Counted from the first letter of the stretch, positions 13,179 through 38,954 are shown. The stretch: DNA of 64,000 nt from a virus (IMGVR_UViG_3300013131_000024:45858-109857), one strand, 5' to 3'. Program-made: numbers and translations. The notes: generated by a model from the sequence alone, not told the origin.

Positions 13179-13212
13179 TATTGAGTTAGGAAATTTCCAG
13201 GAGTTGAGAATT

Positions 13213-14648: not shown

Positions 14649-14652
14649 TCCC

Positions 14653-15294
14653 ATGAAAGATTATTACATCTGCTCCGCAAAATATCTTATTCTAGATATA
14701 TCATATCCATATGATGAAATGTTAGACGAAGCTAGAAGACTTAGCCATCGTTTCGTACCTCACAGATCAGCTTTATCTAAAGGTTGGGAATCTTTAACAC
14801 TGCATGGCCTAGGTGAAGATAAAACCGGAAGTTTTGAAGATTATGGATACAAGAACGGAGGAGATGCAGCTAAAGATATGTATTGGACTAAGGCAGCAGA
14901 TGAATCTCCGATAACGAAAAATTTTTTATTGAATAATTTTCCAAGTAAAAGATTCGGTAGAATTCGTCTAATGAAACTTAAGGCAGGTGGGTTTATCGGA
15001 CTTCACTCTGACAGTAGTAGACCTGTTATAGAAAATATAAATTTAGTACTAAACAATCCTCAACATTGTTTATGGATATGGGGGGATGGCACCGAAGTGT
15101 TTATGGATCCTGGCAAAGCCTACGCTATGAATGTTCATTATCAACATAGTGTTTACAACAATAGCTATGAAGATAGATATCACATGATTGTAACAAGACA
15201 CGATTCAACTGATAAATGGAAAGAGATAGTACTGAAAGCATCTAAAGAAACAGGAGAATTAGGCTATTTTGAAAAAATTGATTATCTACCTTAA
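14653..15294 (+). CDS. aspartyl/asparaginyl beta-hydroxylase-like 2OG oxygenase
   Basis: 213 residues; first gene of the enzyme island. The C-terminal half has the jelly-roll metal triad: GLHSDSSRP (His118, Asp120) and NVHYQHSVYN (His165), with Arg175 in EDRYHMIV as the likely 2OG-binding residue. The core (RIRLMKLKAGGFIGLHSD, then WIWGDG) matches the aspartyl/asparaginyl hydroxylase branch. It would hydroxylate a peptide or small molecule using Fe(II), 2OG and O2; the substrate is unknown. The stop overlaps convergently with the next minus-strand gene by 9 bases. No ribosome site is visible. Confidence 0.82.
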   Translation: MKDYYICSAKYLILDISYPYDEMLDEARRLSHRFVPHRSALSKGWESLTLHGLGEDKTGSFEDYGYKNGGDAAKDMYWTKAADESPITKNFLLNNFPSKRFGRIRLMKLKAGGFIGLHSDSSRPVIENINLVLNNPQHCLWIWGDGTEVFMDPGKAYAMNVHYQHSVYNNSYEDRYHMIVTRHDSTDKWKEIVLKASKETGELGYFEKIDYLP

Positions 15295-16692
15295 TATTAT
15301 TGGCGATGTCCAGTCTTTGCTATGCCATTTTGGTTTATTAAGAATGTTGATATCTGTTAAATTAAATTTACAGACTCGATCTTTATAAACTTGCGTAGAT
15401 TTATCGCAAAATCCATCTGCAGCTCTAGCAGAGAATGAAAGAAAAATTTCCGGATTTTTTTCTTGTAATTTATAAATTAATCTGTTCTCGGCTGCTATTC
15501 TATACTTAAGACTTGAAGTATAAGAGAGTGGTGTATAATTAAATACATCACTAACATTATAAAAAGTATTTGCAGTATTATCTACCCAATCAAGATTATA
15601 TGTGCCTAAATAATTTATTAAAATAAAACCATACTGAAGATTTTTAATTCTGTTCCAAGTCATGTCCCAATCGTAGAATTTTGATTTAAATTTTTCCCAT
15701 AATATATTAGATTGTATATAATATTCTTCAGGTATATGTATAGGACCCGATGGAAAATTTTTGTTGATAAAACTTTTATAAAATTCTCCGTAATTTTCTC
15801 CACTCCATTGGCTTATCATTAAGCTCATAAATTGTAGACATTGTGGGTTCACATCGGTAATTACGACTTTGGTTTTATTTGTTGTACCTAGAATATTTAA
15901 ATTATTAATCCAATTAAAACCTGTGCCTGTAGTGATATATTGCTCAATAGGACCTTGACAATTTATATTATCTAATAGACTATCTGAATTGTGCGAAGGA
16001 ACAAAATTAGATCCGAAAAATTGATAATAATATAAGTCAGCAACTTCTTTTAAAAAAACATGATCGTGTTCATAATAAAGATATTTTTTATAGTTCCTTA
16101 TATCGCCTAAATCTATTATTTTTTTTTCCTTTAACAATAATTTAGATATAAGATTCCACCCGTGCTTTTTACCCACATATGTTTTTTTATTTTTTCCTGT
16201 TTTAATCCAAAGAGGAACATAATCGTCGTGTACATTTTCTTCACTTCTTATTGGCTCTATCTGATCATGATATTCATCTTGTTCATAGCCCATCTCTGGC
16301 ATATCGATATCGGAATAGTCATATAAATTTAAAATATAGAACTGATGATGTAATTCGTAATAATATTCTTTTCTATCTAAAATGTGTCCTGCTAAACTAA
16401 AATCTGTAGAACAAAGTTTTTCAACAGACTCAAATAGTTTATCGTTCATTTTTAAACTTGTACCAGTCGAAATAAAAACAGCATACTTGTATTCTTCATA
16501 TACTGCCATTTTAGCTAATAGATCTTCAGATTCTCCTATGAGAATATCAAACCTTTCATGACATTTAAATATAAATTGATCTGTAAGATTAATTGATATC
16601 TCTTTAGCCCAGTTAGTTTGACAATTATTAGTATTATCAATAATGCAAAATACTATGGGTTTTTTCTTGCTAACACTAAATTTTATTGCCAT
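15286..16692 (-). CDS. large unknown island protein with Rossmann-like motif
   Basis: 468 residues, last gene of the minus-strand module 17932-15286. The N-terminal 110 residues alternate beta strands and helices (PIVFCIIDN, YKYAVFISTGTSL) and look like a nucleotide-sugar or Rossmann-type domain. Near residue 250 is TTGTGFNWINNL followed by TKVVITDVNPQCLQFM, reminiscent of a SAM-binding glycine loop and acidic strand end. A glycosyltransferase-like plus methyltransferase-like two-domain protein is one reading. No family is firmly recognised. Its start overlaps the preceding GNAT-like gene by 10 bases. Confidence 0.7.
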   Translation of the reverse strand: MAIKFSVSKKKPIVFCIIDNTNNCQTNWAKEISINLTDQFIFKCHERFDILIGESEDLLAKMAVYEEYKYAVFISTGTSLKMNDKLFESVEKLCSTDFSLAGHILDRKEYYYELHHQFYILNLYDYSDIDMPEMGYEQDEYHDQIEPIRSEENVHDDYVPLWIKTGKNKKTYVGKKHGWNLISKLLLKEKKIIDLGDIRNYKKYLYYEHDHVFLKEVADLYYYQFFGSNFVPSHNSDSLLDNINCQGPIEQYITTGTGFNWINNLNILGTTNKTKVVITDVNPQCLQFMSLMISQWSGENYGEFYKSFINKNFPSGPIHIPEEYYIQSNILWEKFKSKFYDWDMTWNRIKNLQYGFILINYLGTYNLDWVDNTANTFYNVSDVFNYTPLSYTSSLKYRIAAENRLIYKLQEKNPEIFLSFSARAADGFCDKSTQVYKDRVCKFNLTDINILNKPKWHSKDWTSPIILR

Positions 16693-17249
16693 TTTGGAAA
16701 CCTACTAAGTTGTCGTAAAAATTTTTCTGCATCTAATTGCCATACAGTTTGTAATGTTTCTCTATAAAATACTTGTCCTATATTTTTTAGGACACCTTGT
16801 TTTTCTAGAGCAGGACCAAATATATTGTTAACTCGACGCTGTGTTCCTACATCACTTTCGTTAGATGTTATGTAAAGCTTAGACGTTGGTGGAGCCCATT
16901 CAATACATTTGGGTATTAGAAATTGAGAAGTAGGATTTTGATATTCGGTTATAACTCTAATAGTTCTTAAGGCTCGTCCATACGAACCCTCTATTTCATC
17001 AGTTAATACACACGTTCTGGCTGCTATTCTATAACTTCCTTCTCCCATAACATCTTCGAAACTATGAGCAGCTACACTTCCGATTGGTTTAGATTTAAAA
17101 TACAATATCCAGACCTGTTTTTCTTTTTCATTATTAAAGCAATCAACTAATTTTTTCTGGCTACAATTATTCAAAAAACCTTTAGCTTTAGCTCTTTCAT
17201 AGAAATAAGATAAATCTAGATCTTCAGACCAAGGAATTACGTAGAACAT
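16683..17249 (-). CDS. GNAT-like acyltransferase
   Basis: 188 residues. The order of elements suggests a GNAT fold: an N-terminal helix pair, VWILYFKSKPIGSVAAHSF (beta2-beta4 hairpin), YRIAARTCVLTD, a central helix with GSYGRALRTIRVITEYQ, and a C-terminal FYRETLQTVWQLD. The classical Q/RxxGxG/A acetyl-CoA loop is not obvious (GSYGRA may replace it), so the assignment is moderate. It may transfer an acyl group to a product made by the island. It overlaps both neighbours in the operon, so it is co-expressed with the kinase-like and large unknown proteins. Confidence 0.6.
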   Translation of the reverse strand: MFYVIPWSEDLDLSYFYERAKAKGFLNNCSQKKLVDCFNNEKEKQVWILYFKSKPIGSVAAHSFEDVMGEGSYRIAARTCVLTDEIEGSYGRALRTIRVITEYQNPTSQFLIPKCIEWAPPTSKLYITSNESDVGTQRRVNNIFGPALEKQGVLKNIGQVFYRETLQTVWQLDAEKFLRQLSRFPKWQ

Positions 17250-17932
17250 AAAATCTTATCGATAAATTCAGACGAATAGTTATTCCTAAAACTATTCCAA
17301 CAAAGTTTTTCAAGTATTTTAAAACTTTGAGGTTCCTCCCATTTTATATTTAAGATGTCAAGATGTTTTTTCATTTCATTTTGTCTTGTAGAATATATAT
17401 GACTTTCAACGTCTTTTATACTGATGTTAGGTTCATCTTCGTGATACGTGAAAAAATAATTTATACTTTTTAGTTTTCCTTGGACTATAAAATAGCTACT
17501 TGGATGCATACTGAATTTGTATAGTTTTAAAAATTTATGAGCTTTAATTATGTCAATCATCTGCTCTTGCCAATTTGGTAAAACGATATCATAATTTTCA
17601 GTAGCGCATCCTGCCTGCTCCCAAAAATCAACACCGTCTATTTGTAAATATATTTTTCTTTCAGTATAATCTATATCCAAAATAAAAGGAACATGCATAG
17701 GAAATGAACTGTGCATTATTTTTAGGAATTTAACTTCTCTTTCCCACTTTTCCTCCATCTTATCTGGATCAATAATCTCATTCATTCCTTTATGATAATT
17801 ATTGTCGTTATAATACCATTGGACAAATGTTTTTTTGTCTTTGCTTATTAAGCTAGTGTAAATTAAATTATTTCGACAATTTCCCTTACCCGGAACATTG
17901 TTGTAATAGTATTCGTATTTCATAGATAGCAT
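17237..17932 (-). CDS. kinase-like (probably inactive) protein, paralogue A
   Basis: 231 residues. The pattern resembles a compact protein-kinase/aminoglycoside-kinase fold. EREVKFLKIM is an alphaC-like helix, FILDIDYTERKIYLQIDG a hinge-like beta hairpin, and WQEQMIDIIKAHKFL the alphaE region. Then comes MHPSSYFIVQGKLKSINYF in the place of the catalytic loop (normally HxD....N) and DFG. The catalytic Asp and DFG Asp are not preserved here (HPSS, INYF), so it may be a pseudokinase or a different phosphotransferase. The paralogue is the minus-strand gene at 26454-27146. First gene of the leftmost minus-strand module. Confidence 0.55.
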   Translation of the reverse strand: MLSMKYEYYYNNVPGKGNCRNNLIYTSLISKDKKTFVQWYYNDNNYHKGMNEIIDPDKMEEKWEREVKFLKIMHSSFPMHVPFILDIDYTERKIYLQIDGVDFWEQAGCATENYDIVLPNWQEQMIDIIKAHKFLKLYKFSMHPSSYFIVQGKLKSINYFFTYHEDEPNISIKDVESHIYSTRQNEMKKHLDILNIKWEEPQSFKILEKLCWNSFRNNYSSEFIDKILCST

Positions 17933-17943
17933 ATTAATTTATC

Positions 17944-17951
17944 AATAAATA
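17944..17951 (+). promoter_or_regulatory. late-promoter-like motif AATAAATA
   Basis: A 7/8 match to TATAAATA, 17 bases before ATG 17969, in the short divergent gap between the minus-strand module and the plus-strand radical SAM module. No Shine-Dalgarno precedes the ATG. Confidence 0.4.
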
Positions 17952-17968
17952 TCTCGACCAAAATAAAA

Positions 17969-19447
17969 ATGTTAAAATGTATATTGTTCAATGTAGCCAG
18001 CGGAACTAATTTCGCAGGAAATGGTAGATCCGTTGGGGTTTACAGAATCTCTCACCATCTTCGAGAAGAAGGTTGGGATGTAGAAGTTATAGATTTTGCT
18101 AACGAATGGAGTTTAGAAGATCTTAAATTACTTGCTAAATCAAGGATGCATGGCGGACTAAAATTTTTTGGATTCAGTCATATGTATTCAATATGGACTG
18201 AAACCTTAGAGAAATTTTGTCAATGGATTAAAAAAGAGTATAGTGACATAGTTCTAATATCTGGCTCTAGTGTATCACCTCAATTTACGTCTATACATTT
18301 AGATTTTTATATTCAAGGATTCGGAGAAAACGCTATAACAGCTTTACTATCATGGTTGTTTGGCAACGGACCTAAACCAATTTTTTCTATATTCAAAGCA
18401 AACGGAAAACCATTAATTGCTGCCAACGACAATTATCCTTCATATCCAAGGAGAAACTTAAATGTAATTTACGAAGATAGAGATTTTATCGAATCAGAAG
18501 AGTGGTTAGGCATAGAATTTTCTAGAGGATGTAAATTTAGTTGTGATTTTTGTAATTTTCCAGTATTAGGCGTAAAAGGTGATTATACCAGAGATGCCGA
18601 AAATTTTGAAATACAGATAAAAGATGCTTATGATAGATTTGGTGTTACTAACTATTTGGTATCAGACGAAACATTTAATGATCGTACAGAAAAAATTACT
18701 AAATTTGCAGATATAATAGATAAATTAGATTTTAAACCTTGGTTTAGCGGATTTATACGTCCTGATCTCTTAATTAACAGACCGCAGGACAGAGAAGAAC
18801 TGCTACGCATGAATTTTTTAGGTCACCATTATGGTATAGAAAGTTTTAATTACAAAGCAGTTAAATCTATTGGAAAAGGTATGAATCCTGAAAAGGTTAA
18901 ACAGGGTCTTATAGATGTTAGAAAATATTTTGAAAATAATGGAATTAAAAAATACAGAGCTTTATTAACTTTTATCATAGGTCTACCTCATGAAACAAAA
19001 GATGACATTGAACGAACCACTAGATGGTTGATAGAAAATTGGCAAGGACAGTCATGGACTCCCTTCGTTCTGGAGATCCCCGTTGGGGAACTTAATAGAA
19101 AAAGTAAGATGAGCATGAACTATGAGAAATATGGCTATAGAATTTTTCAAGGAGAGCACAAACATCTAGAGTATAAACAGGCAAGAGTATCTAAAGATTT
19201 GTTAATTTGGGAGCATGATCATATGAATTATTTCGATGCCTATGATTTATTTTACAAAATGATAGAATCAAGAAATGATTTAAATAATAATTTTACTTTA
19301 GCTCCTTGGGATCTAGCTATGATAGGTCTTCCAGGAAACGTCTATGATCGACTCATGTTACACAATTCATGTTTACAGGACAAAATTATAGAAGAAAATA
19401 GAATAAAATTTATACAAAGATACATAAGGAAAAAATTAGAATGTTAA
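17969..19447 (+). CDS. radical SAM protein with B12-domain-like N-terminus, copy 1
   Basis: 492 residues. The N-terminal 170 residues resemble the cobalamin-binding (Rossmann) domain of B12-radical SAM enzymes: MLKCILFNV, then HHLREEGWDVEVIDF, IVLISGSSVSP and YIQGFGENAI. The DxHxxG cobalamin-ligand motif is not seen. The radical SAM core has the 4Fe-4S triad C-x3-C-x2-C in RGCKFSCDFCNFP (Cys188, 192, 195). SAM-binding-type segments follow (DETFNDRTEKITKF, GFIRPDLL). The reaction is unknown; homologues methylate or rearrange unactivated carbons. The stop overlaps the next paralogue by 7 bases. First gene of an eight-gene plus-strand module. Confidence 0.87.
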   Translation: MLKCILFNVASGTNFAGNGRSVGVYRISHHLREEGWDVEVIDFANEWSLEDLKLLAKSRMHGGLKFFGFSHMYSIWTETLEKFCQWIKKEYSDIVLISGSSVSPQFTSIHLDFYIQGFGENAITALLSWLFGNGPKPIFSIFKANGKPLIAANDNYPSYPRRNLNVIYEDRDFIESEEWLGIEFSRGCKFSCDFCNFPVLGVKGDYTRDAENFEIQIKDAYDRFGVTNYLVSDETFNDRTEKITKFADIIDKLDFKPWFSGFIRPDLLINRPQDREELLRMNFLGHHYGIESFNYKAVKSIGKGMNPEKVKQGLIDVRKYFENNGIKKYRALLTFIIGLPHETKDDIERTTRWLIENWQGQSWTPFVLEIPVGELNRKSKMSMNYEKYGYRIFQGEHKHLEYKQARVSKDLLIWEHDHMNYFDAYDLFYKMIESRNDLNNNFTLAPWDLAMIGLPGNVYDRLMLHNSCLQDKIIEENRIKFIQRYIRKKLEC

Positions 19448-20910
19448 AATGTATTTTGTTTAACGTTGACAACGGTCCCTTAACTAGAAGACCAATAGGA
19501 GCACATAGAATAGCTCATTTTTTAAGAGAAAACAATTGGGATGCTGAAGTAATAGATTTTTTCAAATTTTGGAGTTTTGATCAACTACAACAATTAGCTA
19601 AACAAAAATTTACTCCAGATGTTAAATGGATCGGAATTTCTTATCTTTTTTTGTCATCTCCTATCGAATCTGTTGATAATTTTTTCTTGTGGGTAAAAAA
19701 GGAATATCCACATATAAAAATCATAGTAGGAAGCCCGATACAGTATAATCAAAAATCTGTGTACGTTGACTATAATATATCTGGGTTCGGAGAAAACGCT
19801 CTGTTAGAACTATTAAAATATCTTTTCAGCAATGGAGCGTCACCGAAATTTTCGTTGGCTACCCATGCCGGAAAACAGATACTAGCTAATGAAATGTACC
19901 CTTCTTATCCTATGAAGAGCCTCAATATAATCTATGAAGATAGAGACTTCATCCAGCCAGAAGAGTGGCTAGGCATTGAATTTGCTAGAGGTTGTAAATT
20001 TAGTTGTGCTTTCTGTAATTTTCCAGTTATAGGTGTTAAAGGAGATTACTCTCGAGATGCGGAAGATTTCGAAGTACAGATCAAGGATGCCTATGATAGA
20101 TTTGGTGTAGAGAACTACTGGGTTTCAGATGAAACGTTTAATGATCGCACGGAGAAAATCACCAAGTTCGCTGATGTTGTTGAAACACTTTCATTTACTC
20201 CATATTTTACCGGATTTATTAGACCTGACCTGTTAATCATTAGACCACAAGATAGAGAAGAACTTCTGCGAATGAATTTTTTAGGTCACTTTTACGGCGT
20301 TGAAACTTTTAATCAAGAAACTGGAAAAATTATAGGAAAAGGTATGGATCCTATTAAAATGAAAGAAGGATTGATAGCTATACGTAAATATTATGAACAA
20401 TATGAAAATAGAAGATATCGGGGCAGTATAAGTTTAATTGCAGGGCTACCTTACGAATCGATTGACAGTATTTTACAAACCAAAGATTGGTTGATAGAAA
20501 ATTGGCAAGGACAAAATTTTACCATGTATCCATTAGAGATTGGAGTTGATGAATTTGATAATCCATCAAAAATAAGTAAAAATTGGAAAAAATATGGTTA
20601 TGTAGATGCATCTAACGATCCTGATATAGGACACCATTTCGCACACATAGGAAATATGCAAATGAATAAAATTTTTATTTGGAAAAATGATTTCACTAAT
20701 CTTAAAGAAGCCAGCGACATAGCGTATCTATATTGGAAAGAAAAATACAATACTGGAAACGATTTTAGACTTAGCAACTTTGCATTATTACATTTAGGAT
20801 TACCTAAAAACTTAGATGAAAAATTTTCTGTAAAAGATACCGAAGAGATAGAAATGTACTCGGCAAATAAAATTATACAAGATTATATAGAGAAAAAATT
20901 AAACAATTAG
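19441..20910 (+). CDS. radical SAM protein with B12-domain-like N-terminus, copy 2
   Basis: 489 residues, a tandem paralogue of the preceding gene. Both start MLKCILFNV and share long identical stretches around the core. Its cluster-binding triad is in RGCKFSCAFCNFP (Cys185, 189, 192), and DETFNDRTEKITKFADVV and GFIRPDLLI are conserved. The N-terminal Rossmann-type domain again lacks DxHxxG. C-terminal regions diverge more, suggesting different substrates. Duplication in tandem with a 7-base overlap implies joint function. Confidence 0.87.
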   Translation: MLKCILFNVDNGPLTRRPIGAHRIAHFLRENNWDAEVIDFFKFWSFDQLQQLAKQKFTPDVKWIGISYLFLSSPIESVDNFFLWVKKEYPHIKIIVGSPIQYNQKSVYVDYNISGFGENALLELLKYLFSNGASPKFSLATHAGKQILANEMYPSYPMKSLNIIYEDRDFIQPEEWLGIEFARGCKFSCAFCNFPVIGVKGDYSRDAEDFEVQIKDAYDRFGVENYWVSDETFNDRTEKITKFADVVETLSFTPYFTGFIRPDLLIIRPQDREELLRMNFLGHFYGVETFNQETGKIIGKGMDPIKMKEGLIAIRKYYEQYENRRYRGSISLIAGLPYESIDSILQTKDWLIENWQGQNFTMYPLEIGVDEFDNPSKISKNWKKYGYVDASNDPDIGHHFAHIGNMQMNKIFIWKNDFTNLKEASDIAYLYWKEKYNTGNDFRLSNFALLHLGLPKNLDEKFSVKDTEEIEMYSANKIIQDYIEKKLNN

Positions 20911-20920
20911 TTACGAAAAA

Positions 20921-21988
20921 ATGAAAAAATTGTCAGATACTCTTTCTGTTTGTGAATTTTGTTATAGACATGTGCCAGCCATACGATTTGAAAGAGATGG
21001 AGGAATCTGGTTGTGGAAAAAATGTAAATGGCATGGAGAATCAGAACATTTAGTCGAGCCTGATGCAAGTTTTTATTTAAATTATACCTACATAAGAAAA
21101 CAATTAGAAAGTTACATGATTGATATAACCAATAAATGTAATCTCACTTGTCCAAACTGTCATCAAGAACCGAATAATAATTCAAAAGATTTACCTATAA
21201 ATTTTTTTATAGATATCATATCATCATGGCCAGATAACGGTTGGCCAGTAGCACTTTGTGGGGCAGAACCGACTATTAGAAAAGATTTACCTGAATTTGT
21301 AGAAGCCATTAATTCTATGCCAAGAAAGAAACGTGATATTATTATCCTCACCAACGCTGTGCGACTGGCTGATGAAAATTATACGCAGCAATTTATTGCC
21401 TACAACAATATCTACTGGACTATTGGGTTAAACCATCCTGAATATCAAGGGCATAAGGTTAGAGAAAAACAAATTAAAGGAATTGAAAATTTAGTAAAAT
21501 ATAAACAAAAAATTAAGAATATCAGTTACACTTTAGAAATACTAGGACAAATGGAGTATTGTCTTGAAGAGTTACAAGAATTTTCAAAAAAATATTGTAA
21601 GGCCTTTAGAGTAAGGACAGGTGTTGATATTGGCAGATATCCAGGAGGTCCAAAAGTGTATATGTCAGATTTAGTCAAAGAAATGAATAGAGTGGCAGAA
21701 AAAAATAAATGGCCAATTGAAAAAATTAATGACCAAGGTAATAGAGCTCATTACGCTGTGTTAATTAATGATGTGCCAGTAAAAATTATTCAATGGCCAG
21801 ATGCACAAACATTAGATTTAAGAGAAATACAAACGGAAGCTTTTGGAGATTTTGTACCTAACAAACCAGCATCTCCGCTGATCCATCAAATTATTTTACG
21901 AGATGCACACATTAACAAAGGTCTTCCTCTATATGATACCATTCCACAGGAATATTTAGATAATTATGGCAATCATAGGAATCAATAA
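20921..21988 (+). CDS. radical SAM protein with Cys-rich N-terminal domain (Tes/COG1964-like)
   Basis: 355 residues. The N-terminal Cys-rich segment is CEFCYRHVPAIRFERDGG, then KKCKWHGESEHLVEPDASFY. This is the layout of the MJ0619/tetraether-synthase group, in which such a zinc- or Fe-binding domain precedes the radical SAM core. The core triad is NKCNLTCPNCH (Cys73, 77, 80). LCGAEPTIRKDLPEF is the expected second segment. Known relatives form C-C bonds between lipid tails or methylate pterin-type substrates; no substrate can be assigned here. It ends by overlapping the next gene by 23 bases. Confidence 0.82.
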   Translation: MKKLSDTLSVCEFCYRHVPAIRFERDGGIWLWKKCKWHGESEHLVEPDASFYLNYTYIRKQLESYMIDITNKCNLTCPNCHQEPNNNSKDLPINFFIDIISSWPDNGWPVALCGAEPTIRKDLPEFVEAINSMPRKKRDIIILTNAVRLADENYTQQFIAYNNIYWTIGLNHPEYQGHKVREKQIKGIENLVKYKQKIKNISYTLEILGQMEYCLEELQEFSKKYCKAFRVRTGVDIGRYPGGPKVYMSDLVKEMNRVAEKNKWPIEKINDQGNRAHYAVLINDVPVKIIQWPDAQTLDLREIQTEAFGDFVPNKPASPLIHQIILRDAHINKGLPLYDTIPQEYLDNYGNHRNQ

Positions 21989-22775
21989 TTTACCTTATAT
22001 AGATATGGAACCATACTTAGATATGGATATCTTTGAAAAATTACAGCCTGAAATCTACACAGGATTTTCGTTGGCTAGAGAATATGCCAAAGAAGGAACT
22101 TGGATGCAGCCTGGATTTTCTATGAAAGATATGAGCTATATTATAAATTGGAAACCAATATATAAAGCAATGGAAGAGTTTCAATCATTGCCGGACGACA
22201 ACCCAATTAAAAAGGAAGGAATAAAGTTAATGCCATCCGATTTCAAAGATTTTCGTCAAAGAAATATTTTTACAAGATATTTAAAAATGGCTATGGGAGC
22301 ATACGATCCTTACATTTATTATTTTTTATGGGAAGAAGGCGATTGGAATAACAGAGAAAAAGAACGTAAGATGACCGACGAAGCAAAATATTTTCCTTCT
22401 GTTGTAGAATGGGTATTGAATCTTCAAAAAACACAGATATTTGAACATATTGGTAGAGTAATATTTTTCCACTGTGAGGCAGACGGCATTCCATTTGAAC
22501 ATAGAGATCTAGATGCCCAAAACGGCATAGACATAATTAAACCTCATCGAAACGAATTTATACATATTAGACCTGATACAAAAAAATCATTTTATATTTG
22601 GGATCCAAAAAAGAAAAATAAAATTTATCTTAATACAAGAGCAGCATGGTGGAATGACGTGGACTGGCATGGAGGAGAGAGGATTATGGAACAGAGTTAT
22701 AGCTTACGTGTAGATGGCAGGTTTACCGATGAGTTTCGGAAACGTTTAGGTATAAATCACTTGGATAATTATTAA
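21966..22775 (+). CDS. double-stranded beta-helix (2OG/Fe(II)-type) protein, paralogue A
   Basis: 269 residues. A helical N-terminal half is followed by a jelly-roll with a candidate metal triad: FEHRDLD (His179, Asp181) and DWHGGE (His235), with SLRVDGR supplying Arg248. The segment NEFIHIRPDTKKSFYIWD sits between as core strands. It is a paralogue of the next gene, with the same layout and the same HGGE and (S/A)(L/I)R(V/I)DG motifs. Likely an Fe(II)-dependent oxygenase acting on an island product. It shares a stop-start overlap with both neighbours. Confidence 0.7.
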   Translation: MAIIGINNLPYIDMEPYLDMDIFEKLQPEIYTGFSLAREYAKEGTWMQPGFSMKDMSYIINWKPIYKAMEEFQSLPDDNPIKKEGIKLMPSDFKDFRQRNIFTRYLKMAMGAYDPYIYYFLWEEGDWNNREKERKMTDEAKYFPSVVEWVLNLQKTQIFEHIGRVIFFHCEADGIPFEHRDLDAQNGIDIIKPHRNEFIHIRPDTKKSFYIWDPKKKNKIYLNTRAAWWNDVDWHGGERIMEQSYSLRVDGRFTDEFRKRLGINHLDNY

Positions 22776-27811: not shown

Positions 27812-27843
27812 AGTGAAAAATATTTATGTACTATTATTATCGT

Positions 27844-27850
27844 GTAAATA
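27844..27850 (+). promoter_or_regulatory. late-promoter-like motif GTAAATA next to a start codon
   Basis: Partial match to TATAAATA, ending 4 bases before ATG 27855. No ribosome site is visible. Suggestive only. Confidence 0.25.
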
Positions 27851-27854
27851 TATT

Positions 27855-31505: not shown

Positions 31506-32466
31506 ATTTAGTTGTGTTTATTTCTGGCTGACAAAAACATTTGTTTCTAGTACATGTTGTCGGAATAATTTTAGGATTAAAATTATTCTTAAAATTTTTA
31601 TCGAATATATTAAATTGATAAGGAAGGTCATAAAGATTTTCTCCACACGCTCCTTGGATAGAACCAGATTTATCAATATATAATGTATCTATTCCGATAT
31701 TACATTTCCAACCGTCAAAAGAGTTTAAAGAATTTAATGAAATCCAATTATGCGGAACTTTTTTTGTGCTATTATCATTAAATGTGACTGTACTTTTTTT
31801 ATCTGGAATAGTTTGAGCTTTTAACCACCAGAAGACATTTGGAATTCTTTTTAGTGATTTAGACAAATATTTTTTTTGATCTTCGGTATATCTTATAGAA
31901 TGATGATGCACTTCTTGAGCATCTATAGGCCAACTTTTATTACTGCCTTTCAAAGTCTCAATTAAATGAACGCACTGATTCCATGCTGTTGGATCCATTA
32001 ATACTTTTACAGACAAACTCTTGTTTTTACTGTAAAGTAAATCTCCAACTTTTATTATGTGGGCAGGATCAACAAACTGGTGATGACAGCTTATCATCGT
32101 GTGATCAAAATTCTGACCATTTTCATCCCACCATTTCAATGTCCTACTCCCATTGGTAGAAATGCTTATCAAAGTGTTATAATTTTCTTTAAAGTATGAA
32201 ACAAAATCTGTAAGATTCGGCCAAATAGTTGGTTCTCCACCGATAATATGAAAATAAAAACGTTCTTTATTTTGATGTTGTTTATAATAATTTAATAAAT
32301 GACTTAAATTATCAATTAGAAGATCGTAATCCGGCCAACGATGAGTTCCTTCGTTTGATCCGGGAAAGCAATACCAACATCGATGATTACATACGTTGAA
32401 CAAGAATAATTCAATTCTTAAATAATTATTCGGTAAATTGGATTCTATTTTAATAATTTCTTTCAT
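31492..32466 (-). CDS. radical SAM protein, CNxxCWYC subgroup, copy 2
   Basis: 324 residues. NVCNHRCWYCFPGSNEGTH carries Cys26, 30, 33. HIIGGEPTIWPNLTDF and ISTNGSRT follow. The C-terminus has GWKCNIGIDTLYIDKSGSI, GACGEN and CTRNKCFCQPE as a SPASM-like cysteine set. Closest relative in the window is the gene at 35566-36570 (shared CFPGSN/CWPGSN..GTH). Last gene of the long minus-strand module; overlaps the twitch gene upstream by 4 bases. Confidence 0.87.
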   Translation of the reverse strand: MKEIIKIESNLPNNYLRIELFLFNVCNHRCWYCFPGSNEGTHRWPDYDLLIDNLSHLLNYYKQHQNKERFYFHIIGGEPTIWPNLTDFVSYFKENYNTLISISTNGSRTLKWWDENGQNFDHTMISCHHQFVDPAHIIKVGDLLYSKNKSLSVKVLMDPTAWNQCVHLIETLKGSNKSWPIDAQEVHHHSIRYTEDQKKYLSKSLKRIPNVFWWLKAQTIPDKKSTVTFNDNSTKKVPHNWISLNSLNSFDGWKCNIGIDTLYIDKSGSIQGACGENLYDLPYQFNIFDKNFKNNFNPKIIPTTCTRNKCFCQPEINTTKFKIL

Positions 32467-33878
32467 AATAAATTGCTTAGTTCCGGAAATGTTATTTTAA
32501 AATCTAATTTACGTTGATTATCTAAAGTCGTTATATATTCTCTAAAATCAGGTAATAAATTTGTATGGTCTTCACTGTCCATCCAATCGAGAATTCCTTC
32601 CCAGCGTTTCCAACCATATGAATTTACTTCCCAGAAGTCTTCATCTTTGGTATAATTATGCCAAAGCCATTCTTTTAATTCGTTGAATAAATTTCGAATT
32701 TCTTCTTTATGTTCTTTTGGCAAAACTTTCAAACTTAGCCAGGTCGGAATCCATACGAGATGTGCGCTGAACAATCCTCCGCTATGTATCTCTCCTACTA
32801 TGTTTTGATTAAGATTAATTTTCTTAAAATTTTGTGAAATCTTCCATTTTATAAAATCAGGTATATGTTTGATATTCAACAATTGAACTGCACATGCGAT
32901 TGTTGTTTCGATGTTTTCTGGAGCATTGTCAAGCAAATGCAAATTTTTTACTACGGTTTCCCAATCGGTCGGATATCGAATATAATGCAATCTATCCCCC
33001 ATACCATCTATGCTGAATCCAAATTTCACTTTTTTAAAATTTTTCCATAGATTTATTGTATTCTCATCTAGAAGTAATCCGTTGCTATTATATCTAAGTT
33101 CGATATCTTTTGCATATCCCTGTTTTATTATTTCTTCCAAGAATCTCCTGTGTTCTTTAATCATTAGAGGTTCACCACCTGCAAAATAAATTTGTTTTAT
33201 GTTAGGAATTTGTTCATAAATTTCTTTCCAAAAATTTAAATTCTCATGCCACAGATTATTAAATTTGTCTTGCTGCCAGCTCAATTGTTTTTTGATTAAA
33301 GAACTATTGAATAAAGGATAAATCTTTTTATGATCCTCTACCCATTTGCTGCTGTCATGCGGACTACACATAACACATTTTAAATTACAGGTATGACCTA
33401 ATCTTAAATCAATATAATGTAATTTATAAGGAACCCTACCGTCTAGGTCTGTCTGGGCAATTAATGATGGAATATCTATGCCTTGCTTATGCCATACGCC
33501 AGTTTCCCAAATACGTTTACTTACAACTCCGTTTTGTTCTTCTTCGAAACATTTTTTACAACTTAAAGGAATTTTTCCTTCTAACATCGTTTGTCTAACA
33601 TTTCGCATGTATTCGCTGTTAAATGATTCCGATGGCGAATCTTTAGAAAAATTTGCAGATTCTCCAGTTTCTGTTTTTACAAGACCTACATTATAATTTC
33701 CATCTTTGGCACCACTGGCATTTGCAACACAACATATTCGCATATCTCCATTCGGTCTAGTAGCCAAATGTATCCATGGAAGAACACAGAAGCTAGGGCT
33801 TCCACTAATGTCTTCTATTTGTTTTTGCCAACTACCTAACTGTGATTCTTGAGATTGCATCCAGAATATTTTATTCAT
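32463..33878 (-). CDS. twitch-domain radical SAM protein, copy 2
   Basis: 471 residues. The N-terminal twitch domain is SFCVLPWIHLATRPNGDMRICC (Cys31, 49, 50), then SCKKCFEEE (Cys107, 110). The radical SAM core has GHTCNLKCVMCSPHDSSKW (Cys164, 168, 171) and FAGGEPLM. FSIDGMGDRLHYIRY matches the region SIDGIGDVYEYIRG of copy 1 at 28531. It overlaps the next radical SAM gene downstream by 4 bases and the upstream one by 8. Confidence 0.87.
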   Translation of the reverse strand: MNKIFWMQSQESQLGSWQKQIEDISGSPSFCVLPWIHLATRPNGDMRICCVANASGAKDGNYNVGLVKTETGESANFSKDSPSESFNSEYMRNVRQTMLEGKIPLSCKKCFEEEQNGVVSKRIWETGVWHKQGIDIPSLIAQTDLDGRVPYKLHYIDLRLGHTCNLKCVMCSPHDSSKWVEDHKKIYPLFNSSLIKKQLSWQQDKFNNLWHENLNFWKEIYEQIPNIKQIYFAGGEPLMIKEHRRFLEEIIKQGYAKDIELRYNSNGLLLDENTINLWKNFKKVKFGFSIDGMGDRLHYIRYPTDWETVVKNLHLLDNAPENIETTIACAVQLLNIKHIPDFIKWKISQNFKKINLNQNIVGEIHSGGLFSAHLVWIPTWLSLKVLPKEHKEEIRNLFNELKEWLWHNYTKDEDFWEVNSYGWKRWEGILDWMDSEDHTNLLPDFREYITTLDNQRKLDFKITFPELSNLL

Positions 33879-34962
33879 TGAATTGATCTAATTTTAAAAA
33901 TTGGTCTTTGCTTTTGCTTATTTGATGATTTTTAAAAACTCCACAGGTTCTCGAACATGCCCTGAGCGGACTATTTTCAAAAGAATCTATCCATAGTGTT
34001 TGCCACTGATCGCTGTCGACAATCTCTTCTATAGTTTTATTTTGCAAATTAAAATTCTCTAGTCCTCCAAACTTATCTATAAATTCAAAAAACGTTTGGC
34101 GACTATCTTCTTGAAATGAATGAACTAGCTGATCGGATTTTGTATAAATGTAAGGAACTGCGCCTACAAAACAGCAGGGCCATAAATACCCATTAGCATC
34201 GATGAAAATACTCTTTGTTTTTTCTACATCGCAATTTATTTTTACTTCGCTGAAAATTTTTCTATAATTTTCTACAGTTTTTTTATCAATAAAAGCTAAT
34301 TTATGAACCGTAGGCATTTCTAATTTATGTGAAACTTTTCCTTCTTTGTTATAAACTTCATAATAAGGGGTTCCAATAAATCTACTTGTTTGTTTTTCAA
34401 AGAAACTATCGAATCCGAGAGTTTTTGCTAATTTTTTACATTCTTCTAATTGATGTTCATTGTGCTTAAATGTAATAAAAACCCATCGTGCATTTCCCCC
34501 TGCTTCGATAAATGATTTTGAATTATCGATAATTTTGTTCCAGTCAGTTCCGATTCTGTAAAGGGAATGCGTATCGGCTAGGCCATCTAACGCAAAATGC
34601 ACTAAATGATTAGTCGGTAATGCAAGTGCAAGGTCTTTCCACCATTTTGTTGACCTAGCTCCGCCATTTGTATGGATATCAATTTTTATTTTTGGAGATA
34701 CTTTTTTAATATATTCTGTTATAGGTATAAGATCTTGGTTAAGTATAGGATCTCCAAAATTTCCGCACATAGAAATCTGATGCAATTGAGATAACAAATC
34801 AGGTGAAACTATTTTTTTAAAAAAATCTAAATCAACATCTTTTACCTTCAAAATAGGATTAGGCAACCCTCCATGATGATTTCTCGCACACATAGGACAA
34901 CTTGCCTGACAATTAGAGGATAGCTCAAGATGTAATTCTTTTAAATCTTCGTATCGATACAT
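33871..34962 (-). CDS. radical SAM/SPASM-like protein
   Basis: 363 residues. HLELSSNCQASCPMCARNHHGG carries the triad Cys18, 22, 25. CGNFGDPILNQDL replaces the usual GGEP block and DIHTNGGARS follows, a pattern seen in SPASM-type enzymes. C-terminal cysteines KINCDVEKTK, GYLWPCCFVG and RACSRTCGVF would hold auxiliary clusters. It is distinct from the other island subgroups, suggesting a separate reaction. Its start shares a base with the methyltransferase stop upstream. Confidence 0.85.
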   Translation of the reverse strand: MYRYEDLKELHLELSSNCQASCPMCARNHHGGLPNPILKVKDVDLDFFKKIVSPDLLSQLHQISMCGNFGDPILNQDLIPITEYIKKVSPKIKIDIHTNGGARSTKWWKDLALALPTNHLVHFALDGLADTHSLYRIGTDWNKIIDNSKSFIEAGGNARWVFITFKHNEHQLEECKKLAKTLGFDSFFEKQTSRFIGTPYYEVYNKEGKVSHKLEMPTVHKLAFIDKKTVENYRKIFSEVKINCDVEKTKSIFIDANGYLWPCCFVGAVPYIYTKSDQLVHSFQEDSRQTFFEFIDKFGGLENFNLQNKTIEEIVDSDQWQTLWIDSFENSPLRACSRTCGVFKNHQISKSKDQFLKLDQFNE

Positions 34963-35576
34963 TATACTTTACCTATGATCATGAATCTTTTATATAAAGA
35001 TAATTCTAATTCTCTCGACCAAAGAACTTGGATATTAGATTGTTTTATAAATTCTTCTAGAGAACCGGCTGTCCTCACATGTTCTGGTATGTTATAGTTG
35101 TTGCTTTGTAAAACAATTATACTGTTTTGAGGTTGGCCACTGAGCCATAGATCGTATTGATCCTGCGTAATATGTTCGCAACTGGTATTGATAATGATAT
35201 CAGCATCACTTCGCATAATACACATGTCTGCGGTTACTGCTCTAAAACGACCTCCCATTTCTTCTTTCTTATTCATCATAGTTGCTATAGATTCACAGTC
35301 TGGATCTATATCAATGCTACGAATATTACTGATAGGAATATCGCTTTGGAACAACATACTGGCCAACACTCCTACCCATCCGCCGTGTACGTCGACACTT
35401 AATGGAAAGTCTAAAACTTTGTTTATTTCAGTATAGATATAATATTCTAAGTTTTCAATTAACCATTCTTTGCTTTGTATTTGTCCTCGCCAGAATGCAT
35501 CAAGGGTACGCATAGGATCCTTGCTTTCACGAATAGCACACATCCAATAATGTAAATGTTCTGTATCAATTTGCAT
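34962..35576 (-). CDS. class I SAM-dependent methyltransferase-like
   Basis: 204 residues from the ATG at 35576, which overlaps the upstream radical SAM stop region by 11 bases; a longer frame to 35645 is rejected. Rossmann motifs: PLSVDVHGGWVGVLASMLF (motif I, glycine loop), IRSIDIDPDCESI (motif II, acidic strand end), then FRAVTADMCI and DIIINTSCEHI (motif IV). A small-molecule or protein methyltransferase is likely; the acceptor is unknown. It lies between two radical SAM genes in the minus-strand module. Confidence 0.78.
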   Translation of the reverse strand: MQIDTEHLHYWMCAIRESKDPMRTLDAFWRGQIQSKEWLIENLEYYIYTEINKVLDFPLSVDVHGGWVGVLASMLFQSDIPISNIRSIDIDPDCESIATMMNKKEEMGGRFRAVTADMCIMRSDADIIINTSCEHITQDQYDLWLSGQPQNSIIVLQSNNYNIPEHVRTAGSLEEFIKQSNIQVLWSRELELSLYKRFMIIGKV

Positions 35577-36570
35577 GAATAGGTATAATCTTTTTACTGT
35601 TGTTAATCTTTCTCTTCGGCATGACAGTTTCAACACTGCAAACACAAGAAGTTTGACTACATATCGCTGGTTTAATAGAGGGATTAAATTTTTTTGTAAA
35701 GTCTATATCATAAAGATTGTATGAGAAGTCATTTCCATATAAAACTTGATTACAACTTCCTTGTATGTTACCTTCTTTTGATACATTGACCCAATGAACA
35801 CCTACACTACATTCCCATCCATAAAAATTATTCAACTTTTTTAGTAGGATTTCGTTGTCCTTAAACTTATGTTTTTTATTATTTAAATCAGTTACCACTA
35901 CAGAACTTCTATAATATTTGTTATTTTTCCAAAAGAAAAACGGATTTACTTTACGTGCTCTATGTTTAGATAAAATTTTCTTTTGTTCTTCTGTATAATC
36001 TACAGTATTGTCGATAATTTCAACATACCTAATAGTCCATCTACGTCTACTACCTTTTAAGTATTCAACCAATTCTAAACACTTGTCCCATTCACGGGGA
36101 TCCATCATTACTGATACACTTACTACAATATTTTTCTCATACAAATGATCACATAGATTTCTAAATTCTTCCTTGTCGACAAATTCATGATGGCAACTCA
36201 TATGCACTCGATCAAAATACTTTGCGTTCTGTTCCCACCAGTCTAATTTCTTAGAACCGTTAGATGTCATAGATATTAAACAATTAAATTCTTCTTTAAG
36301 AAACTTTATAAACTCTGGTAATTTAGGCCAATGCGTAGGTTCACCGCCACAAAAATGAACATCGAATACTTTTTTATCTGTATAAGTTTTATAATAATTT
36401 ATAAAATGAGAAATATTTTGTTTTATTACATCTATATCAGGAAATTTATGAGTACCTACATTTGACCCTGGCCAACAATACCAACATTTGTAATTACAGT
36501 AATTGCCGAGATTTATGTCAATGTTTAATACTTCTTCTCGCCAATTATTCTTTATTTCGATTATATCCAT
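35566..36570 (-). CDS. radical SAM protein, CNYxCWYC subgroup, copy 3
   Basis: 334 residues. GNYCNYKCWYCWPGSNVGTH carries Cys25, 29, 32. HFCGGEPTHWPKLPEF and MTSNGSKK follow. The C-terminus has GWECSVGVHWVNVSKEGNI, GSCNQ and CSQTSCVCSVE. It is a close paralogue of 31492-32466. The basic C-terminal tail PKRKINNSKKIIPIHAN is an extra. It overlaps the SGNH-like gene upstream by 26 bases. Confidence 0.87.
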   Translation of the reverse strand: MDIIEIKNNWREEVLNIDINLGNYCNYKCWYCWPGSNVGTHKFPDIDVIKQNISHFINYYKTYTDKKVFDVHFCGGEPTHWPKLPEFIKFLKEEFNCLISMTSNGSKKLDWWEQNAKYFDRVHMSCHHEFVDKEEFRNLCDHLYEKNIVVSVSVMMDPREWDKCLELVEYLKGSRRRWTIRYVEIIDNTVDYTEEQKKILSKHRARKVNPFFFWKNNKYYRSSVVVTDLNNKKHKFKDNEILLKKLNNFYGWECSVGVHWVNVSKEGNIQGSCNQVLYGNDFSYNLYDIDFTKKFNPSIKPAICSQTSCVCSVETVMPKRKINNSKKIIPIHAN

Positions 36571-37267
36571 ATTGTACCATTTTAATATTTAATCTTGTCT
36601 TATCTCCTGGATAGTCGGTAATGATATCAGTTAGAGTATTTGCAAATAACTCATTTCCTTTTAAGGTATAATGATTACCTGACGGTTTTTTAAAATTTAA
36701 AAAATATTTTTCCTGTTCTTCTGCATATGTGTATAAAGGTATACCAATAGTAACTCCTTTATCAAAAGTATAATTAGAATAATCCCCATCAAACCCAAAA
36801 AAATGTACAATCTTTTCTATACTATATTTTTTAACTATATCGTCTAGTTCCTTAAACCATTGATGTACTGCCCAATTATAAAAATCAAATGACATTAGAT
36901 GTTTGTAATATTGAAATGCAGCTTGATGCACTTCATCGGGCATCTTATATTCTTTATCGTTTACATTAATTAACCTAGTTTCGACACTTCGAAAATTAAG
37001 ACCTACATCGTTATCATTCGGAATTCGATATGGTTCTGTATGACATACTATCAGTATTTTGGGTATGCTAATTTCCAATTCTTTTAAAATAATTTTCCTG
37101 TAAGACCACCAAGATCCGCCCGGCATTCCTTTGCCTCTCGGTTGTCTTTTTGAATTAAATGTCTCTCCTGTTAAATTACTAACTAGAATTTGAGGCCAGT
37201 GATATTTCTTGTTTCTGTCTGAACAAAAACTATCTCCGACTATTAATATATCATTCCAATTATACAT
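36545..37267 (-). CDS. SGNH/GDSL-like protein, copy 2
   Basis: 240 residues. Block I is ILIVGDSFCSD with the expected GDS(F) nucleophile. KGMPGGSWWSYRKII lies in the block II region and SGNHYTLKGNELFANTL at the end supplies an N-H-Y catalytic-His-like segment. Likely an esterase or acyltransferase of the SGNH fold. It differs from the copies at 30663 and 37299 in having the classical GDS motif. No signal peptide is visible, so it is cytoplasmic. Confidence 0.7.
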   Translation of the reverse strand: MYNWNDILIVGDSFCSDRNKKYHWPQILVSNLTGETFNSKRQPRGKGMPGGSWWSYRKIILKELEISIPKILIVCHTEPYRIPNDNDVGLNFRSVETRLINVNDKEYKMPDEVHQAAFQYYKHLMSFDFYNWAVHQWFKELDDIVKKYSIEKIVHFFGFDGDYSNYTFDKGVTIGIPLYTYAEEQEKYFLNFKKPSGNHYTLKGNELFANTLTDIITDYPGDKTRLNIKMVQYGYNRNKE

Positions 37268-37298
37268 GCTTATACTTTACATCCGTCTAAATTTATTT

Positions 37299-37955
37299 CT
37301 AATCGCACTTAGCTCGATCTCTTAAGAAATGTTTTACAACTCCGTAAGGTTTATGATACGGAATATCGTTGCTTATATTTAAAAACTCTAAAATCTGTTT
37401 GGCAAATGCTTGATTGCATTCTATACCCGGATGACATTTATCAAGAGCATAAGGATAAAATTCACTTAATCTAATAATATAAACAGGAATATGTCTAACT
37501 GTGTCATTTGACAATGTTAATATTGTGTTTATAGAATCTTTAACAATTAAATTATATGTTTGTATATTTTTAGATTTTAAAAACACGTTAGCATGGTTAA
37601 CAAATAATTTTGACATTAGATTAGCATCAAAAACATCATAAAAATCTTTGTAGTACTCGCAATCAGATCTTACATTAATATCAATGACGCGATCTTGTTT
37701 TATAATTGCACTTCGATCTGGGTACGACCATAAAATAAAAACAGTATCTGTTTCAATAAAATTAAAATTAAGTATAGTATTCCAGATTCGTTTATTACTA
37801 GATCCCGGACTAGCCATGTTTATACAATGTCTATTCATATATTTTGCAAGAATAGTAGGCCATCCTAATTGACTAGGAGTAGGACACGGGTTAACACAAT
37901 CAGGAAGACCTTGTCCATATGTCAACGAGCATCCAAAAGTTATCAATCTTTCCAT
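37299..37955 (-). CDS. SGNH/GDSL-like protein, copy 3
   Basis: 218 residues. Block I is LITFGCSLTYGQGLPD (nucleophile Ser in GCS, as in the copy at 30663). Block II is NMASPGSSNKRIWNTI, and LDKCHPGIECNQAFA supplies the terminal D..HP. The set indicates an SGNH hydrolase or acyltransferase. It overlaps the upstream radical SAM gene by 13 bases and is separated by 31 bases from the SGNH gene downstream. Confidence 0.75.
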   Translation of the reverse strand: MERLITFGCSLTYGQGLPDCVNPCPTPSQLGWPTILAKYMNRHCINMASPGSSNKRIWNTILNFNFIETDTVFILWSYPDRSAIIKQDRVIDINVRSDCEYYKDFYDVFDANLMSKLFVNHANVFLKSKNIQTYNLIVKDSINTILTLSNDTVRHIPVYIIRLSEFYPYALDKCHPGIECNQAFAKQILEFLNISNDIPYHKPYGVVKHFLRDRAKCD

Positions 37956-38926
37956 TTTGGTATCTTACTGTCTGCTGAACTAACACATGTTGGGGTGATA
38001 CAAATTTTTGATTCTTTAAAAAGTTCAAAATTAGTTATAGTACCTAATGATATATCTTGACAACTATACGATCTTTTAACTTCACTACCTCTTATTATGA
38101 TACTTTGATATCCTGAATTGCAATTCCATCCGGTGAATTTGTTAAATCCGTAAGCATTAAATCGTTCAGCTTGATCAATTAAATATTCTTTTTCGTTTTT
38201 ATCGTAAAGAGATATCTGATACACATCTTCACCGTTCGTTTGTTGAGGAAATCCGGTTTTCATCAGTCTGGTCATCTCATCGGTATAACCATCTACTACA
38301 CAACTTGCAGTAGGATCACTCTGCGGTTTTAAAGTCACATTGATTCCTCTTCGATATAATCGTTCGCAACGTTCGTATAATTCGTAAAATTTTTCCGGTA
38401 CCATTACTTGATTAACTGTTAAGAAAACATTTTCATAAATTAACTGTAAACATTTATCTCCAAATTCTTGTTCTTTAGCATGTTCTGCATGATAACTAGC
38501 AGTTATACTACGGCGTTGTAAATCTTTAGTAATACTACACCAAGATCCCCACCATTTCGACCCTGGACTAAGGTTCGTAGTCATATGAACACTTTGGTAT
38601 GGGGTTGTTGGACCATCATCTAAATATTGTATTAGATGTAAGAGATCTTTATAAGCAGTAGGTTCTCCGCCGCTAAAACTCCAATGAAACTCCATGAAAT
38701 CATTTTGCCTAGCCTGACGTTTAATTTCATCTATGGTGCGTTTATAAACTGCAAGTTCTTGATGGTCAAGTTCATCGCTTCGAGCATAAGGCCAACAATA
38801 AGAACAATTATAATTACAGAATCTTCCCAATATCCAGCTTACAGAAAACAAAGGACGAGACAACATAGTTCGTTGTCCAAATTTAACAATATGTTGAAAA
38901 GGAATTTTTTGAAAATCGTGCGTCAT
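37943..38926 (-). CDS. radical SAM protein, CNYxCxYC subgroup, copy 4
   Basis: 327 residues; first gene of the eight-gene minus-strand module. GRFCNYNCSYCWPYARSDELD carries Cys37, 41, 44. WSFSGGEPTAYKDLLHL and MTTNLSPGSKWW follow. The C-terminal region has GWNCNSGYQSIIIRGSEVKRSYSC and CITPTCVSSAD, a reduced SPASM-like cysteine set. It lies next to a promoter region and the tRNA-like gene on the opposite strand. Confidence 0.87.
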   Translation of the reverse strand: MTHDFQKIPFQHIVKFGQRTMLSRPLFSVSWILGRFCNYNCSYCWPYARSDELDHQELAVYKRTIDEIKRQARQNDFMEFHWSFSGGEPTAYKDLLHLIQYLDDGPTTPYQSVHMTTNLSPGSKWWGSWCSITKDLQRRSITASYHAEHAKEQEFGDKCLQLIYENVFLTVNQVMVPEKFYELYERCERLYRRGINVTLKPQSDPTASCVVDGYTDEMTRLMKTGFPQQTNGEDVYQISLYDKNEKEYLIDQAERFNAYGFNKFTGWNCNSGYQSIIIRGSEVKRSYSCQDISLGTITNFELFKESKICITPTCVSSADSKIPKWKD

Positions 38927-38954
38927 AAACTGCTAATATTTAACCTATAAAAGG

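Follow-up and report, generated by a model that had tools for sequence, protein, structure and literature searches.

A radical SAM-rich phage island with a conserved core, a counterpart in Bdellovibrionota and a possible role in glycan tailoring

Introduction

Phage islands rich in radical S-adenosylmethionine (SAM) enzymes have been noted since 2010, with metabolic boosting, pyrroloquinoline quinone (PQQ) and Fe-S supply as guesses about their role and no product. The Campylobacter phages CP220 and CPt10 encode 11-12 radical SAM proteins and an exchangeable module, and general boosting of host metabolism was proposed for them (PMC2853527). In the host-recognition cluster of pelagimyophages, radical SAM cassettes differ between related phages, and published proposals for similar regions favour a change of the O-antigen against superinfection (PMC7029224). 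Baikal methylotroph phages combine radical SAM and SAM-cycle genes, and a supply of PQQ for methanol dehydrogenase was proposed (PMC7678222); a further source reports a T4-like marine genome, TARA_ERS488813_N000010, with 12 radical SAM genes (PMC5332604). Here we analyse such an island from a freshwater phage, located at positions 14653-38926 of the viral stretch IMGVR_UViG_3300013131_000024:45858-109857. This whole stretch of 64,000 nucleotides, hereafter the window, forms the end of an IMG/VR record of 109,857 bases.

A first-pass annotation, made from the sequence alone, had described the island as unlike any phage pathway, which the published radical SAM-rich modules contradict (PMC2853527, PMC7029224, PMC5332604), and had suggested that it makes or attaches a complex small molecule or modification. 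As shown below, the genes do form one linked biosynthetic system, and their neighbourhood fits a virion or surface glycan, one of the candidates listed there, as a possible product.

Results

A conserved core shared by many phages

The island comprises 28 genes (g01 to g28), six of which form its core:

g18, 28531..29787, plus strand: twitch radical SAM protein (NF033640, 340 bits)
g19, 29780..30676, plus strand: radical SAM protein paired with g18 (PF04055, 2.2e-13)
g22, 32463..33878, minus strand: twitch radical SAM protein (NF033640, 406 bits)
g23, 33871..34962, minus strand: radical SAM/SPASM protein (PF04055, 9e-8; PF13186)
g24, 34962..35576, minus strand: class-I SAM-dependent methyltransferase fold (AlphaFold pLDDT 88; Foldseek 1.8e-9 to methyltransferases)
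g28, 37943..38926, minus strand: radical SAM protein, the marker of the pathway (PF04055, 4.8e-12)

Viral contigs were scanned with g22 and g25, which yielded 114 loci (63 after removal of near-copies); the core statistics refer to the 39 distinct phage loci of at least 12 kb. The genes g28, g24, g22 and g23 were each present in 92% of these loci, g18 and g19 each in 85%, with g19 adjoining g18 in 24 of the 39. Core identities are typically 57-72% (median 72% for g18), g23 being at 38%. Outside the core, g16 occurred in 82% of the loci and g17 and g13 in 56%, the remaining genes being rarer, and many accessory genes show approximately 33-50% identity, with exceptions such as g08 (65%). The accessory genes are reshuffled in order and strand, with one to six strand switches and 3-13 radical SAM homologues per locus; in 20 larger contigs there were 6-14 radical SAM matches.

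Since the first loci came via g22 or g25, g24 was used as the sole independent seed. It is encoded by at least 586 contigs, and the 28 distinct long loci of the g24-seeded set contained g28 in 26 cases, g23 in 27 and g22 in 23. Because the same gene set recurs over dozens of distinct contigs, with most core homologues at approximately 57-72% identity, its origin by chance is excluded, and the data support the island as one conserved, linked biosynthetic system. A search for the same neighbourhood in phages and bacteria, as proposed by the first-pass annotation, found the core in most of the 39 phage loci and in some Bdellovibrionota; scattering of the genes among relatives, which that annotation regarded as contrary to its reading, was not observed, as they are linked in the 39 loci and in the g24-seeded ones.

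The island is hypervariable, its content is non-syntenic among relatives, and its left border adjoins a tail-fibre gene, as in the islands of host-recognition clusters. Against annotated phages, neither megablast of the island nor tblastn of g05, g14, g25 and g24 gave a match.

A counterpart in Bdellovibrionota

The first genome scan, with g19, gave no match, and a scan with the g18/g22 alignment found matches in many Bdellovibrionota. A profile search detected g28 in 22 of 369 Bdellovibrionota genomes. Nearly all of these matches reached E 1e-150 or lower, while the remaining genomes gave no match at the limit of 1e-30, an all-or-none pattern. Bacterial g28 is mostly accompanied by g22 and g23 and often, but less regularly, by g24; a GT-A-like protein of 225 residues is also frequent in these loci and a pyridoxal phosphate (PLP)-type enzyme occurs in some, the gene order being shuffled. 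In a Bdellovibrionia contig of 916,837 bases (L188), homologues of g01, g02, g18 and g19 cluster at 745-775 kb; this cluster is among the 33 twitch matches of the genome, which has a 30-kb chromosomal island with approximately 15 twitch radical SAM proteins.

In the g28 tree, phage and bacterial sequences are split by one branch (support 100/99). Therefore, the exchange between phages and Bdellovibrionota is old, and by this tree it may have gone either way.

Several further bacterial genes were seen in the course of these scans. Contig L188 also encodes, at 18430-20466, a 678-residue protein that appears to be a 2-oxoglutarate oxygenase fused to a g02-like C-terminal domain. The g28 core lies on two metagenome-assembled contigs, L180 and L190, binned to Rickettsiales and Gammaproteobacteria; L190, with a ThyX homologue and a bacterial-type g28, looks like a mis-binned phage. 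In Synechocystis salina (L227, 9125-13918) a protein of 1597 residues joins an apparent sulfotransferase-like N-terminus to a twitch radical SAM domain. Isolated bacterial twitch genes (Reichenbachiella, Nitratireductor, Hoeflea, Paenibacillus and others) have unrelated contexts and gave no clue to function.

Evidence bearing on a glycan product

In one Bdellovibrionota locus (L257), g28, g23, g22 and g24 lie in this order among Pfam-confirmed genes for a sugar epimerase, an asparagine synthase, a family 2 glycosyltransferase (GT2), an acyltransferase-SGNH protein and a second GT2. Of 20 Bdellovibrionota genomes, 8 have a GT2 gene no more than 10 kb from g28, as compared to 1.81 expected (p = 1.9e-4; the expectation is derived from genome size and GT2 number, with GT2 genes treated as randomly placed). 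The recurrent 225-residue partner has a GT-A glycosyltransferase fold (AF2 pLDDT 91.4). Its nearest structures in PDB by Foldseek are the WrtF fucosyltransferase (7e-6), RmlT and GalNAc-transferases, at TM-scores of only approximately 0.4, and its closest named viral models are glycosyltransferases. Inspection of other recurrent neighbours revealed sequences like those of sugar epimerases, UDP-glucose dehydrogenases and aminotransferases.

In the window itself, two sugar-related genes lie to the right of the island:

KdsA, 47598..48428, plus strand: 3-deoxy-8-phosphooctulonate (Kdo-8-P) synthase (TIGR01362, 396 bits, cut-off 314)
Glycosyltransferase overlapping KdsA, 48403..49197, plus strand: GT8-like DLD motif (phrog_1962, 4.5e-29)

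KdsA is 8.7 kb from the island. Its aldolase family (PF00793) was observed in 7 of 21 island phages, in several of them approximately 9 kb from the g28 end.

We propose that the island represents, in phages, a conserved, combinatorially variable pathway for a glycan or glycoconjugate, situated in the host-recognition (tail-fibre) region. What follows on its reactions, their sequence, the acceptor and any benefit is inferred. The core radical SAM proteins g28, g22, g23, g18 and g19, together with the methyltransferase g24, would make or remodel a sugar-containing precursor by C-H chemistry, for example, dehydrogenation, epimerisation or methylation. The swappable Fe(II) oxygenases, kinase-like proteins, PP-loop ATPases, SGNH-like proteins and B12-type radical SAM proteins would then add strain-specific groups. 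Transferases, encoded inside the island in some phages and outside it in the present one (KdsA and the GT8-like enzyme), would place the product on the surface of the virion or on the host envelope, where it may alter phage recognition, superinfection or adsorption.

Several observations weigh against this proposal. In the present island no glycosyltransferase or nucleotidyltransferase exceeds any cut-off, the present phage record lacks both the GT-A partner and the PLP-type enzyme, and none of the 21 phage records has a GT2 (PF00535) protein. A cluster of the O-antigen or lipopolysaccharide (LPS) type would hold such genes within it; here KdsA and the glycosyltransferase are approximately 9 kb away, and KdsA could have a role in ordinary LPS synthesis that is unrelated to the island. 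At 12 of the 20 bacterial g28 loci a GT2 is missing from the surrounding 10 kb, in some cases only because the contig is short. Finally, peptides are frequent substrates of twitch/SPASM and Asp/Asn-hydroxylase enzymes, and the end-to-end ones among the best structural matches of g24 include the protein N-terminal methyltransferases NTMT1/Ntm1. Since the island lacks a glycosyltransferase of its own above cut-off and not all bacterial loci are near one, we hold the probability of a glycan pathway at about one half.

Radical SAM proteins, oxygenases and other enzymes

Ten radical SAM proteins had been predicted, and all ten exceed the curated PF04055 cut-off, each with the CX3CX2C triad. Full-length membership in the NF033640 twitch family (cut-off 170 bits) was observed for g18 and g22; the other eight are below this threshold, as well as below every curated NCBIfam cut-off shown. 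In g05 and g06 the B12-binding domain PF02310 stays under its cut-off of 32.1 bits (24.1 and 24.8, respectively), which is a resemblance only. The radical SAM proteins outside the core are:

g05, 17969..19447, plus strand: radical SAM protein, sub-threshold B12-binding domain (PF04055, 2.4e-14; PF02310, 3.3e-5)
g06, 19441..20910, plus strand: paralogue of g05, also radical SAM with a sub-threshold B12-binding domain (PF04055, 1.2e-10; PF02310, 2.1e-5)
g07, 20921..21988, plus strand: radical SAM protein with HMPTM zinc ribbon (PF23545, 6e-12; PF04055, 1.3e-8)
g21, 31492..32466, minus strand: radical SAM protein (PF04055, 1.2e-11)
g25, 35566..36570, minus strand: radical SAM protein (PF04055, 1.2e-11)

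The eight proteins predicted to be jelly-roll oxygenases all contain HxD, and the strength of the assignment differs between them. It is solid for g01, the only island member of PF05118 above the cut-off, to which proteins of phages and of Bdellovibrionota are related; good for g10, g12 and g13, which are linked by profiles; and moderate for g16, whose PF05118 match is sub-threshold. The remaining three, g08, g09 and g11, are candidate oxygenases by motif: g08 and g09 had no profile link to the other island oxygenases, their basis being the conserved H, D and H.

g01, 14653..15294, plus strand: Asp/Asn beta-hydroxylase-type oxygenase (PF05118, 3.3e-10)
g08, 21966..22775, plus strand: putative Fe(II) oxygenase with conserved HRD...H (family A11, invariant H179, D181 and H235)
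g09, 22775..23548, plus strand: paralogue of g08 (family A11, 33% identity)
g10, 23536..24039, plus strand: jelly-roll oxygenase-type protein (A10-A14 hhalign 99.1%)
g11, 24036..24635, plus strand: HxD protein, oxygenase-like by motif
g12, 24632..25156, plus strand: jelly-roll oxygenase-type protein of the same family as g10
g13, 25147..25764, minus strand: jelly-roll oxygenase-type protein (family A14; hhalign 99.1% to g10/g12)
g16, 27143..27811, minus strand: oxygenase recurrent in islands (PF05118, 0.0068)

Among the other enzymes, both predicted kinases were upheld by a joint profile, and the predicted methyltransferase by the fold of g24. Of two PP-loop proteins recognised by SGGADS, g14 exceeds the QueC (PF06508) cut-off, owing to its C-terminus, and scores 25 bits against 150 for the QueC equivalog TIGR00364; the QueC-type score of g17 is below the cut-off, and its true start is probably near 27855. 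The motifs behind three SGNH and one GNAT labels were also seen, but these labels are motif readings that found no match in the library. As had been said, there is one large unknown protein, g02.

g02, 15286..16692, minus strand: large unknown, no match in library scans; homologues in L188, inside Bdellovibrionota radical SAM islands
g03, 16683..17249, minus strand: GNAT-like at motif level, no match in library scans; conserved beside g04 in phage loci
g04, 17237..17932, minus strand: kinase-like (joint profile with g15, 7e-7 to chains of the kinase TTK)
g14, 25740..26453, minus strand: PP-loop ATPase with QueC-like C-terminus (PF06508, 2.7e-8)
g15, 26454..27146, minus strand: kinase-like (family A2, profile with g04)
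g17, 27813..28541, plus strand: PP-loop ATPase (SGGADS and terminal Cys motif invariant in family A3)
g20, 30663..31505, plus strand: SGNH-like by motif
g26, 36545..37267, minus strand: SGNH-like by motif
g27, 37299..37955, minus strand: SGNH-like (FGCS..., conserved DxxHPG, invariants of family A12); the family has no PDB match

For the oxygenase, SGNH, PLP-type, GT-A and g02 families, profile searches of PDB were uninformative.

Layout, borders and intactness

The 28 genes, rather than the 24 initially counted, are packed into 24,274 bases with a coding share of 99.7%; 22 of the 27 junctions overlap and all 28 frames are open. The strands run +1, -3, +8, -4, +4, -8; hence, the five overlapping modules of alternating strand described previously are present, with g01 standing apart from them after the fibre gene. 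The GC content is approximately 0.32 in the island and 0.40 in the flanks. The island does lie, as had been noticed, between a fibre gene and a tRNA-like element, the latter being followed by ThyX:

f03, 13204..14619, plus strand: fibre-like gene with Mtd_N domain, just upstream of the island (PF18454, 6e-10, above cut-off)
Late-promoter-like site of the T4 type, TATAAATA, 14641..14648, plus strand: 4 nt before g01
tRNA-like sequence with CCA end, approximately 38990..39100, plus strand: upstream of g28, read from the sequence
ThyX-type thymidylate synthase, 39816..40529, plus strand: conserved flank of g28 (phrog_85, 1.4e-73)

The tRNA-like sequence has a good acceptor stem and T arm and was called by neither ARAGORN nor Rfam; the Rfam scan of the island itself had no match. 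ThyX adjoins the islands in 9 of 39 loci. A tRNA array of 29 genes covering most amino acids occupies 7.5 kb of the window (3459-10913).

Sites of the TATAAATA type number three in the window, as compared to 11.3 expected, and each is just upstream of a gene. Over all loci, 29 late-promoter-like sites are sense-upstream and 14 antisense, a modest enrichment. The fibre gene and the site before g01 would favour late, virion-linked expression.

A second contig, IMGVR_UViG_3300013126_002908, matches the window at 100% identity over positions 12000-29444 and 22466-42000, which include both island borders. Therefore, a chimeric assembly at these borders, which the first-pass annotation had likewise regarded as contrary to its reading, was rejected, keeping in mind that the contig possibly comes from the same population and is not fully independent.

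Alternative explanations

The best surviving alternative, which we nevertheless find unlikely, is a hypermodification of virion proteins, in which side chains of a fibre or capsid protein would be the direct substrates of the enzymes, in the manner of ribosomally synthesised and post-translationally modified peptides; proteusin peptides are modified by radical SAM epimerases, C-methyltransferases and hydroxylases. The SPASM/twitch features of several radical SAM proteins and their weak similarity to peptide maturases, the Asp/Asn hydroxylase type of g01, the adjoining fibre gene and the likeness of the g24 fold to NTMT1 would all agree with it. Such a pathway would need a precursor, but the coding density of the island leaves no room for its gene, and none was conserved across loci among the clustered open reading frames of at least 60 codons. 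The nearest conserved small gene, f04 (67 residues), is missing from approximately three quarters of the loci and was rejected as a precursor of general role. The library scans reported no PqqD-like recognition domain, and the proximity of the bacterial homologues to glycosyltransferases exceeds chance.

Markedly less probable is the supply of a cofactor or small molecule to host metabolism, such as PQQ for methanol dehydrogenase, or general boosting. The record does encode S-adenosylhomocysteine hydrolase (PF05221, 4e-131), resembling the SAM-cycle genes of Baikal phages, but this gene is present in only one of 11 island phages and was rejected as a dedicated partner. It belongs to a segment (L159, 2894-11919; record 22.9-31.9 kb) that also encodes an IMPDH/GMP-reductase family enzyme, a GroEL-type chaperonin and a DnaK-like protein. 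The best score of an island radical SAM protein for PqqE is approximately 24 bits against a cut-off of 381, and the library-scan matches included no other Pqq family, so that a PQQ pathway was rejected for this island; the reshuffled, divergent periphery is also not expected of a cofactor pathway.

Hypermodification of DNA or tRNA by the PP-loop/QueC-like, radical SAM, kinase-like and GNAT-like proteins is equally improbable. The QueC-like PP-loops, a weak QueE-like PHROG match and the nearby ThyX and tRNA array point in this direction; against this, the radical SAM proteins score far under the QueE, TYW1 and viperin cut-offs, the QueC/7-deazaguanine scores fall short of family membership, the island yielded neither a QueD nor a FolE family, and the bacterial counterparts are chromosomal, some of them among polysaccharide genes.

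The least probable is modification of an envelope lipid, e.g. lipid A, by LpxO-like hydroxylases and kinases: the family of g01 (PF05118) also includes LpxO, PagP adjoins the radical SAM cluster of Vibrio phage K566, there are sub-threshold matches to HpnJ and to lipid-ladder B12 radical SAM proteins, and some loci contain desaturase-like genes, but every lipid-family match is far under its cut-off and the lipid-like genes are accessory rather than core.

Discussion

With a defined core (g28, g24, g23, g22, g18 and g19) that occurs in hundreds of phage contigs, g24 in at least 586, and has a counterpart in Bdellovibrionota, what was an oddity becomes a testable pathway. If its product is a surface glycan, aquatic phages would pair oxygen-sensitive radical chemistry with oxygen-dependent Fe(II) chemistry and so vary their own surface or that of the host, which would matter for host range, for superinfection and for the enzymology of natural products. 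More tentatively, and with somewhat less than even confidence, we suggest that this is an undescribed combinatorial system of glycan tailoring, in which swappable oxygenases, kinases and ligases surround a fixed radical SAM/methyltransferase core, yielding a phage-specific hypermodified surface sugar, and which is abundant in aquatic phages and shared with predatory Bdellovibrionota. In the open-licence literature searched, we found no paper on this core, its Bdellovibrionota counterpart or the linkage to Kdo synthase.

Among known systems, TARA_ERS488813_N000010, a T4-like phage from the environment, has just as many radical SAM enzymes, but there they were interpreted as Fe-S metabolism (PMC5332604). 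The cultured Vibrio phages K566 and K567 (255 kb) have clustered radical SAM genes on both strands, including twitch-type homologues at 21-23% identity, but g24 has no match there and the neighbours include PagP and genes of NAD metabolism.

CP220 and CPt10 carry five radical SAM proteins in a dense exchangeable module with sugar-transferase-like genes. Their homology to the present island is only distant (24-29% identity); the module is on a single strand and includes an amidinotransferase, while g24 has no match in annotated phages.

In the cultured Pelagibacter phage Mosig EXVC030M an analogous island lies between the tail fibres and VrlC. Like the pelagimyophage host-recognition cluster, it resembles the present island in being hypervariable, situated among tail-fibre genes and alternating in strand, with Asp/Asn hydroxylases, MoaA-like radical SAM proteins, a methyltransferase and a GNAT protein. 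Mosig differs in having a carbamoyltransferase, nitroreductases and aminotransferases; the radical SAM similarity is weak and partial (25%), and the shared core was not seen there.

The Bdellovibrionota islands (L188, L257 and L293-L308) differ in the position of g28 on the other side of the tree and in the number of twitch proteins, up to 33 per genome, but they share with the phage loci the core genes, g01, g02, the GT-A and PLP-type partners and the shuffled order.

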